Source: Kluyveromyces lactis (lineage: Eukaryota > Ascomycota > Saccharomycetes > Saccharomycetales > Saccharomycetaceae). Taken from it: a DNA stretch of 64,000 bases. Every line of letters begins with the position of its first letter. Positions within the stretch are counted from its first letter, which is position 1. Position numbers and translations under genes: made by a program. The stretch is taken from NCBI RefSeq assembly GCF_000002515.2, contig NC_006038.1, positions 310,001 through 374,000 on the forward strand. The letters run 5' to 3'. The notes below the pieces were generated by a model, which was given only the letters and a program-made list of their open reading frames with translations, was not told the origin of the DNA and did not search any database. This document shows, one piece after another, positions 48,538-54,058 of the stretch.

Positions 48538-48786
48538 ATGAGTACCGGCGAAGATGGTTCCAAAAACGGGCAGCATATTACTGAAAAGCAACGAGAGAAG
48601 ATTCGAAGTGCGTTAATAACTCGCCAGGAAGAGAAACTGCAAGAGGCCCTGAATGAGATAGAGAGAGTGAAAGGTAACACCAAAGAGATGCTGGAATCTG
48701 TGATTTCTACGTGGAAAGAGAAGGCTAAATTGAGGGATGGAACTATCCAGGAAACCCTGGACCGTGAAAGGGCTGGTGATGTTTAG
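48538..48786 (+). CDS. NBL1: Probable Nbl1, borealin-like subunit of the chromosomal passenger complex
   Basis: This 82-residue, highly charged helical protein (for example EKQREKIRSALITRQEEKL) is predicted to form a coiled coil over most of its length. Its size and position next to RPN10, on the opposite strand, match S. cerevisiae YHR199C-A (73 residues), the borealin-like partner of Sli15 and Bir1 that anchors Ipl1 at kinetochores. I could not confirm sequence similarity from memory, so the name rests mainly on synteny and architecture. The frame begins at GTG 48517; the first ATG is 48538. S. cerevisiae NBL1 has an intron; none is evident here. A short upstream frame (48482-48520) precedes it. 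Confidence 0.72.
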   Translation: MSTGEDGSKNGQHITEKQREKIRSALITRQEEKLQEALNEIERVKGNTKEMLESVISTWKEKAKLRDGTIQETLDRERAGDV

Positions 48787-48850: not shown

Positions 48851-48973
48851 CACGTGACCATGCCTAAGATCGAAAGACTGTTTCCCCCCAATTCTGTGGT
48901 GATATTAAAGTGGGCGAGAAATCCAATTAGTGCTCCGGGTGATTAATAGTCACGTGTAATGATTTCCCACGTG
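48851..48973. promoter_or_regulatory. Three Cbf1-type CACGTG boxes upstream of MET5
   Basis: CACGTG occurs at 48851-48856, 48951-48956 and 48968-48973, and each is part of TCACGTG on one strand, the form bound by Cbf1 with Met4/Met28 at sulfur genes. They are 780-900 bases from the MET5 start and near the end of NBL1, whose tail they follow. Confidence 0.6.
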
Positions 48974-49756: not shown

Positions 49757-52700
49757 ATGACCGGTTACAGCTTGGCGCAAGTTTTGGCAGAAGCCAGTCG
49801 TTCTGTTGTTTCAAGAAACAACGTTTTCTATACAACTCCATCCAAATCTGAAAACTCCGGTATTTCCTTGGAACTTTCCAAAACCGATGCAATCAGGTTG
49901 CTTAACAGTAATGACCCATTCGCAACTATCTCTGAAGCTGCTTCCAAAGATGTATTTACTACAGTTTTTACAGATGATTCAACATTGCTGAAGGCTCTTC
50001 CTTACCTATACAGCTTGAAATCTCTTCCGGTTGTTATCAACGTGGAGTTGACATTGCAAGATTTTTCAATTATTCCTGCTTTGAAAGATTTGGATTATGT
50101 TAGTTTTGTCTCCAACAGTTTTGCTGATGCTAAGGCTGCTGCGGAGGTTTCATACAAGGTAGCTTCTACCTTATTACAGCCTGTGCTACATTTTATCAGT
50201 GTTCCTTATCACGTCGAAGGAATCGCTGAATTATCCTTTCAAAAAGCTGAATTTACAGAAGATGAAGAAGCTGAATCAGAAAGACTTGAAGATTTGCTCA
50301 CCGTTGAAAAATACAATTTCTATTCTCATAACAAGCTGCCTTCTACAGTCGTGATAAATTTATCGCCATATGCCCAAGAATTCTCGGAGTCACTACCAAA
50401 GGATACAGCATTGATAGATCTCAAGGTCTACAGACCTTTCGATTTGACTTCTCTTCTTGCAGAGATCCCAACATCTGTTAAAGATATTGTTATTGTTCAA
50501 AAATCTAACAGCAAGCCGGAGAATACCAATGGATTCGAACCAATCCAACTAGATTTTTTCTCTGATTTTAATTTACTTGTTGAAAGAGAGATCAAGCAAA
50601 TCGTTGTCTCTAACGTTGGGGAAATCACCGATTTTTCCAAAACTCTGCAACAGTTAATTTCCAACATCAAGTCAGACTCTCCCGATCTCTCTTTATACCT
50701 AGGAGAACGTGTTGAAACTGAAGCTACACAAGGTTTATCAATCTCAATTGCAGGTGCTCTTTCACTGGAATTCGCTTATGAAAAGGTCTTAAACCAACTC
50801 TTCAAATCGAACTTAGATGTATTGAACAAATACGACAACGAAAGTGTCAATGTCACCAACCCAGAATATGGATTTGGTCTATTTTTGAAGCAAAAGCAAG
50901 AACGTGATTCCTTGATTTCATTGGCCAATAAATCATTGAATGCTTCAGAATATACTTCAAGTGATGGTCAGAAAATTGTTGAACTTCTTGATCAATGGAT
51001 TAAGTTGAATAATGTTGCTCTAGAAGAGTCCACGATTGAAAAGGGAAACAAAGTTGCAGAAGAGCTATTCGAGTTACTACAAAACAACGATCATTCATCT
51101 ACTGCTCTCTCTCTATTGAAAAAAATTGGATCAGTGGAGGCGTTGAAATTTAAGTCTTCATGGCTTGTCGGATCAGATGCTTGGTCTTACGATCTCGGTC
51201 AGTCTGGTGTCCACCATGTGCTCGCTTCTAATGAGAATATCAACATTCTAATCATCGATTCCGATCCATATGATAAAGTAAAAGCCTCTGAGATTAAATC
51301 TAGAAAGAAAGACGTTGGTCTCTACGCTATGAACTTTGGTAACGCTTACGTCGCATCTGTTGCTGTTTATTCATCATACACACAGCTACTTACATCATTT
51401 GTCGAAGCTTCTAAATTTGTTGGACCATCAATCATTCTAGCGTACTTGCCATACAACTCAGAAAGAGACACTCCACTAGAAGTTTTAAAAGAAACCAAAA
51501 TTGGTGTCGAAAGTGGTTACTGGCCTTTATACAGGTTTAACCCTTACGAAGAACGCGACGACCAAGTTTTCAAATTGGACTCCTCTGTTATCAAACAACA
51601 ACTGAAGGACTTTTTAGACCGAGAGAATAAGCTCACTCTTCTAGCTCAAAAGTCCCCAGAGCTTGCCAGAAATTTGAAGCATTCCGCCTCAGATGCGATT
51701 CAATTGAAACAAGACAGAAGGGCTAAAGCAGCATTCGATCAACTCTTAGAAGGTCTCTCTGGCCCTCCTCTTCACATTTATCATGCTTCTGACGGTGGCA
51801 ATGCAGCTAATTTAGCAAAAAGATTGGGTACAAGGGCATCTGCTAGAGGTCTAAAAACTATTGTACTATCAATGGAAGACATTGTTCTAGAAGAGTTACC
51901 AGGTGAAGAGAATGTTGTATTTATAACGTCAACTGCTGGTCAAGGTGAATTCCCTCAAGATGGTAAGGCATTTTGGGATGCTCTGAAGTCTTCTACTGAC
52001 CTCGATTTAGCTTCTTTGAATTTCTCCGTGTTTGGTTTAGGTGACTCTGCATACTGGCCACGTAAGGAAGACGCCCATTACTACAACAAACCCGCTAAGG
52101 ATTTGTTCAAGAGATTAGAATTGCTTTCTGGTCAAGAACTAGTTTCTTTGGGATTGGGTGATGACCAGGATGCCGATGGTTATCAAACAGGCTATGCTGT
52201 GTGGGAAGCTCAGCTCTGGGAGAAACTTGGTGTTTCCGGTGCAACTGTCCCTGATGAACCAAAGCCGATCACCAATGAAGATATCAAAATTGCTTCCAAT
52301 TTCCTCAGAGATACAATTGTGGAAGGGCTACAAGATGAATCAACTGGTGCAATTTCTGCGTGGGATCAGCAATTAACCAAGTTCCATGGTATCTATATGC
52401 AAGATGATCGTGATATAAGAGACACTAGGAAGAGTCAAGGTCTTGAACCTTATTACATTTTCATGTCAAGAGTTAGATTACCAGGTGGAAAGGCCAATCC
52501 AGATCAATGGTTGATTCTTGATCACTTAGCAGACAAAACTGGTAACGGTACAGTTAAAATTACCACCAGAGCAACTTTCCAATTGCATGGTGTTGTTAAG
52601 CACAATTTAAAGCACACTATCAGAGCTATGAATTCCACCTTGATGGACACTTTAGCGGCGTGTGGTGATGTTAACAGAAATGTCATGCTTTCTGCTTTGC

Positions 52701-54058
52701 CTGCTAATGCCACGGTTCACAAACAAATTGCAGACGTTGGTACATATCTTTCTGAACGTTTCTTGCCTCAAACAACGGCGTATCACGAAATTTGGTTAGA
52801 GGGTCCAGACAAGGATGATGAAGATCCTTCTTGGCCAGAGACCTACGAGAAAAGACAAGAAGGTCCTATAAAGAAGAAGAAAACTCTTGTTGCCGGTAAT
52901 GCATTAGTTGATGCGGAACCAGTCTATGGTCCAACATACTTACCAAGAAAGTTCAAGATCAATATTACTGTTCCACCTTTCAATGATGTCGATGTGTGGT
53001 CCAGTGACGTTGGTTTGATTGCTATAATTGATGAACCAACTCAAACTCTAACAGGTTTCAATCTCTATGTTGGTGGTGGTATGGGGAGTACCCACAACAA
53101 CAAAAAGACATACCCAAGAACAGGTTCGTTGTTCGGGTATGTCTCCGTAGCAGATGTGGGAGATGCCATTGAAAAGGTGATGATTGTTCAAAGAGATCAT
53201 GGTGATCGTACCAACCGTAAGCACGCTCGTTTAAAGTACACTGTTGATGATTTGACCATTGAAGGTTACAAGCAGAAGGTCGAAGAACTATGGGGCAAGA
53301 AGTTTGAACCTGCTGCTGCGTATGAGATCAAATCAAACATTGATTACTTCGGTTGGGTAAAGGATGAAACTGGACTAAATCATTTCACTGCCTTCATTGA
53401 AAATGGTAGAGTGGAAGATACAGTAGAGCTGCCTCAGTAAACAGGTTTCAGGAAAATTGCACAGTTGATGAAGAAAGATAACTTCGGTCACTTCAGATTA
53501 ACCGGTAACCAACACGTTCTTATCTCAGACGTTGATGACGAGCATTTAGACGAAGTTAAAGCTATCATGAACAAGTACAAGCTAGACAACACGAACTTCA
53601 GTGGATTGAGGTTATCGTCTGCTGCATGTGTTGCTTTGCCAACCTGTGGTTTGGCTATGGCCGAATCTGAACGTTATTTGCCTGTTTTAATCACAAAGCT
53701 GGAGAATGCATTAGAAGAGTATGGGTTACGCCACGATTCTATTGTCATGAGAATGACTGGTTGTCCAAATGGTTGTGCTCGTCCATGGTTAGCTGAGGTT
53801 GCTTTAGTGGGTAAAGCCCCAGGAACTTATAATCTATTACTCGGAGGTGGTTATTACGGTCAAAGATTGAACAAACTATACAGAGCATCCATCAAAGAAG
53901 ATGAAATTTTAGCCACATTGAAACCTCTATTTAAGAGGTGGTCCTTGGAAAGACTCGAAGGTGAACACTTCGGGGATTTCGTCATTAGAGTAGGTGTTAT
54001 CAAACCAACCTTGGAAGGTAAATACTTCCATGATGATCTTCCAGAAGAAGCTCTATGA
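49757..54058 (+). CDS. MET5: Sulfite reductase beta subunit, interrupted by one in-frame TAA
   Basis: The reading frame encodes the large subunit of assimilatory sulfite reductase, which reduces sulfite to sulfide for methionine and cysteine synthesis. Over 1,433 codon positions (S. cerevisiae Met5 1,442) it aligns throughout: a pyruvate-ferredoxin-oxidoreductase-like N-terminus, a flavodoxin-like domain near 670-820 (SDGGNAANLAKRL, STAGQGEFPQDG, FGLGDSAYW), then the nitrite/sulfite reductase repeats. A TAA at 53438-53440 (codon 1,228) stands where S. cerevisiae has lysine in LPQKTG. The next 205 codons continue in the same frame and hold the siroheme/iron-sulfur cysteines (ACVALPTCG and TGCPNGCARPW). 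Termination would therefore give an inactive 1,227-residue product. Start: GTG 49751 precedes ATG 49757; the ATG is used. Synteny matches YJR137C. Confidence 0.9.

Follow-up and report, generated by a model that had tools for sequence, protein, structure and literature searches.

A premature stop codon in the MET5 sulfite reductase gene of the Kluyveromyces lactis reference genome is probably a sequence error

The MET5 gene in the 64,000 nucleotide stretch of DNA analysed here (the window) carries an in-frame TAA at codon 1228. A base-level error probably put it into the reference, and the MET5 gene of the living strain would accordingly encode an ordinary full-length hemoprotein subunit of 1433 residues. 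The fault would then sit in the reference sequence and not in the sequenced cells, and the strain would make an uninterrupted NADPH sulfite reductase hemoprotein subunit. Such a mistake is the most likely explanation because a nearly identical database protein lacks the stop, and because published reports describe the reference strain as growing well in minimal medium. Of the three options that an earlier note on this DNA had left side by side, namely a sulfite reductase null strain, a stop that is read through and a sequence error, these two observations support the last (or a mutation present in the sequenced DNA alone). The features concerned are listed in Table 1.

Table 1. Coordinates in the window of MET5, its two private changes, its cofactor cysteines and the upstream sites
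Feature	Position	Strand	Remarks
MET5 frame, sulfite reductase (NADPH) hemoprotein/beta subunit	49757..54058	+	1433 codons and a final TGA; broken at codon 1228
In-frame TAA, codon 1228	53438..53440	+	Lys in 141/141 relatives compared
Open codons after the TAA (n=205)	53441..54055	+	Reading-frame scan, sulfite reductase model matches
Cys1291 and Cys1297 (CX5C)	53627..53647	+	Counterparts of E. coli Cys434 and Cys440 in the alignment
Cys1336 and Cys1340 (CX3C)	53762..53776	+	Counterparts of E. coli Cys479 and Cys483 in the alignment
Asp852 codon (GAT), the other private change	52310..52312	+	Gly in 141/141 relatives compared and in E. coli
Three CACGTG sites (putative)	48851..48973	+	906, 806 and 789 bases 5' of the MET5 ATG

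The frame scan confirmed the TAA as the sole internal stop of MET5, as the earlier note had it: from the ATG at 49757, the frame meets this codon and the TGA at 54056-54058, and no others. The 205 codons between the two stops had been described as open and well conserved, and both properties were borne out. Stops number 17 and 16 in the other two frames of this piece, base shuffling left it open in 0/20000 trials, and each of the 25 other ORFs of the window meets its next in-frame stop no more than 56 codons past its end. Searched by itself, the piece also hits sulfite reductase models, and together these observations indicate genuine coding sequence and not a frame open by chance. Conservation past the stop equals that of the preceding catalytic part, with identity to the database protein P0003 of 193/205 versus 314/346.

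Pfam domains NIR_SIR and NIR_SIR_ferr were found 5' of the TAA and a further NIR_SIR_ferr 3' of it, and the model NF010029 matches the pieces on either side. The domains of an assimilatory NADPH sulfite reductase (Met5/CysI) are therefore present, as are the four cluster/siroheme cysteines, all located 3' of the TAA, but the single uninterrupted frame that also defines the family is broken in the assembly at codon 1228. In the E. coli hemoprotein (PDB 6c3m and others), both half domains align with the MET5 product, and the cofactor ligands correspond, from the alignment, to the CX5C and CX3C cysteines that had been noted downstream of the stop. As all four aligned cysteines lie 3' of the TAA, a product ending at residue 1227 would be without the iron-sulfur/siroheme ligands. 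The E. coli protein, which carries Lys and Gly at the positions matching residues 1228 and 852, is without the N-terminal pyruvate-oxidoreductase-like and flavodoxin parts, and the match starts at residue 839 of the MET5 product. The yeast Met5 (Ecm17) proteins, the NADPH sulfite reductase beta subunits of S. cerevisiae, Lachancea and Zygosaccharomyces, share with this gene the flavodoxin and sulfite reductase domains, the length and conservation across the whole frame, whereas the TAA and Asp852 are private to the window among the 141 relatives compared. A DNA search of the genome (10,729,447 bases in 7 contigs) found a single copy of the MET5 stretch, and a NIR_SIR search of the genome found one sulfite reductase gene; no second one was found by either search.

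A database protein of 1433 aa without a stop, P0002 (from lgn and ena, with 9 members, compared by the representative protein), is identical to the MET5 product at 1431/1433 positions. The two differences are Lys versus the stop at residue 1228 and Gly versus Asp at residue 852. The 141 relatives were drawn from two overlapping listings, one with the top 120 of 2379 matches and one with the top 120 of 3031, and include many that are closely related to one another. All carry Lys at residue 1228 and Gly at residue 852, so that lysine is indeed the residue to be expected at the interrupted codon, as P0002 and the E. coli protein also indicate. The alignment of the relatives has 144 invariant columns, of which the window breaks two, those of residues 852 and 1228. 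Both differences from P0002 (2/2) thus lie in invariant columns (144 of the 1433 positions). This speaks against an error, since random errors would strike such columns only one time in ten each, though the stop was picked because it had been noticed. Each of the four cysteines is present in 140/141 relatives, the one gap being taken to belong to a partial entry, P0123.

The change to Asp852 is absent from the earlier note, which had called the gene otherwise intact; the full frame does stay open beyond the TAA, but that description leaves out this second private change. As Gly is found in every relative compared, Asp852 fits a faulty sequence and is a probable second error in MET5. No 1227-residue protein was found among the best 120 of 3031 database matches to the truncated form, which says little because the closest database protein to the MET10 product, P0143, is likewise without an NCBI source. 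Pattern scans of genome_contigs and viral_contigs found no other DNA copy. A lesion that makes a pseudogene would be common to other copies of the species, and P0002 is without the stop. Single-base errors occur in older reference assemblies, and the MET5 stop resembles them: it stands alone in a needed gene that is otherwise intact, and a near-identical protein lacks it.

Verduyn medium provides sulfur essentially as sulfate, and the sulfur metabolism of K. lactis is reportedly the subject of Hebert et al. 2011. CBS 2359 is equated with CLIB 210 as the reference strain of K. lactis (PMC9897184, in which 41 strains were mapped to it) and with NRRL Y-1140 (PMC4240471; PMC9077909), and we infer that the sequenced genome is this K. 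lactis reference, CBS 2359 = NRRL Y-1140. Mitochondrial-type tRNA genes are densely packed on its contig 7. The growth papers give a doubling time of 2.21 h for CBS 2359 in Verduyn synthetic minimal medium (PMC5838033), and a growth rate of 0.298 per h and a yield of 0.57 g per g glucose for K. lactis (given as CBS 2359) in a defined minimal medium, with supplements named for two other species only (PMC3711898). CBS 2359 was also included in a minimal-medium chemostat study, where a supplement is named for Eremothecium coryli (PMC4240471), and was cultured in defined media in two further studies, whose available text does not settle the sulfur source (PMC7033051, PMC2817671). Another K. lactis strain, Kl155 (ade2 his3 ura3), was raised on minimal medium with amino acids solely for its auxotrophies (PMC5483587).

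With its sole sulfite reductase deprived of the cofactor site, a strain would not be expected to grow as reported. Given the inferred strain identity, the growth therefore suggests that MET5, which the growth papers did not sequence, works in CBS 2359, and the failure to grow on sulfate that would mark a pseudogene is not seen in these papers. PMC3508617, PMC9897184 and PMC10664357 yielded nothing on MET5, and no paper naming the stop was found within the open-licence literature.

The other frames of the sulfate assimilation pathway were found to be open. The matches to ATP sulfurylase, PAPS reductase (two), APS kinase (two) and Cys/Met PLP enzymes (six) all lie in open frames with no stop inside, and the frame of the MET10 flavoprotein match is also open (1051). 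Over the 892 residues compared, the MET10 product has one difference from its closest database protein, and it breaks 0/180 columns that are invariant in the first 50 matches and 0/20 in all 120. Judged from these sequences, nothing among the pathway frames suggests a genome that has abandoned sulfate assimilation.

The main rival to an error in the reference is a genuine nonsense mutation limited to the colony or DNA preparation that was sequenced, the strain at large being wild type; the mutant sub-stock would have needed organic sulfur and have been raised on rich medium. It accounts for all the sequence results as well as an error does and, taken alone, the sequence evidence would appear to fit both equally. 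Asp852, at a column invariant in 141/141 relatives, could even be a second damaging change in a gene released from constraint. However, this explanation requires a mutant sub-stock of the type strain, for which direct evidence was not found, and MET10 breaks none of its 180 invariant columns. A mutation of this kind is thus considered unlikely, though it has a real chance of being correct.

Far less credible is that the strain truly carries the TAA and that readthrough is frequent enough to give a working enzyme. Readthrough would reconcile a real stop with the minimal-medium growth described in published reports and would also fit the conserved frame 3' of the TAA, but no stop interrupts the near-identical P0002, 5/25 neighbouring ORFs likewise end in TAA followed by A, and the RNA after the TAA folds no better than shuffled sequences (z = 0.80). 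The context of the TAA is not of a known leaky type, and it is very improbable that CBS 2359 truly carries it, decodes it outside the known leaky contexts and grows on sulfate with its sole MET5 interrupted. Two patterns for a TTA anticodon, the second devised because the first had a gap too long for some tRNAs, gave 35 and 16 matches versus 64 and 33 in reversed controls, and ARAGORN called no TTA tRNA in any of the 46 pattern-match loci examined (of 51) or in 30 tRNA loci; the tRNA family search from which the latter came gave scores for 63 of 772 candidates and a list of 64 matches. No ochre-suppressor tRNA was found in this partial scan, which is not exhaustive because intron-containing tRNAs would escape the patterns. 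A TTTG pattern, intended as a positive control, was weak, with 71 matches versus 44 reversed, and those of its matches to tRNAs that were checked (e.g. C1:785784, inside a tRNA match) were not anticodon matches. The readthrough option thus gained no positive support, the ochre patterns not being enriched and the RNA fold being unremarkable. One sequence (L063, 1500-1533) resembles the 3' half of a tRNA and adjoins a TA repeat, and no tRNA was called there by ARAGORN.

That sulfite reductase was lost naturally and the loss became fixed, in the strain or a population, is less probable still. The TAA would cut off the four aligned cofactor cysteines, and the searches gave no other sulfite reductase gene, but CBS 2359 is described as growing in minimal medium, an intact near-identical protein exists and the other pathway genes searched are without a stop. 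The null-strain option is contradicted, and a natural null was rejected, on the intact P0002 together with the growth in minimal medium given in the published reports. Least probable of all is an intron across the TAA, for which a GTATGT at 53137 and YAG triplets 3' of the TAA could serve, or separate production of the 3' part from the ATG ORF at 53468-54058; the intron was rejected because no exact TACTAAC occurs within 52401-53520 and all six in-frame donor/acceptor pairs found would delete 132-366 bases of conserved core, and the 205-codon piece starts within a ferredoxin-like half domain, which argues against a separate product.

If the stop is an error in the reference, the matter is one of database hygiene, as metabolic models and orthologue sets built from the assembly could list sulfite reductase as broken in a yeast in wide dairy and biotechnology use. 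Should the stop prove real, against expectation, it would point to a sulfur-auxotrophic sub-stock of the type strain or to an unusual case of readthrough.

The earlier note had also described the regulation of MET5 as fully preserved, which was weakly checked, by way of the three putative CACGTG sites; a scan with bacterial promoter and terminator models is meaningless in yeast. The three sites span about 120 bases, and a long upstream region separates them from the MET5 ATG. An 82-codon ATG frame with no Pfam match (48538-48786) lies between a VWA-domain gene and the MET5 upstream region.
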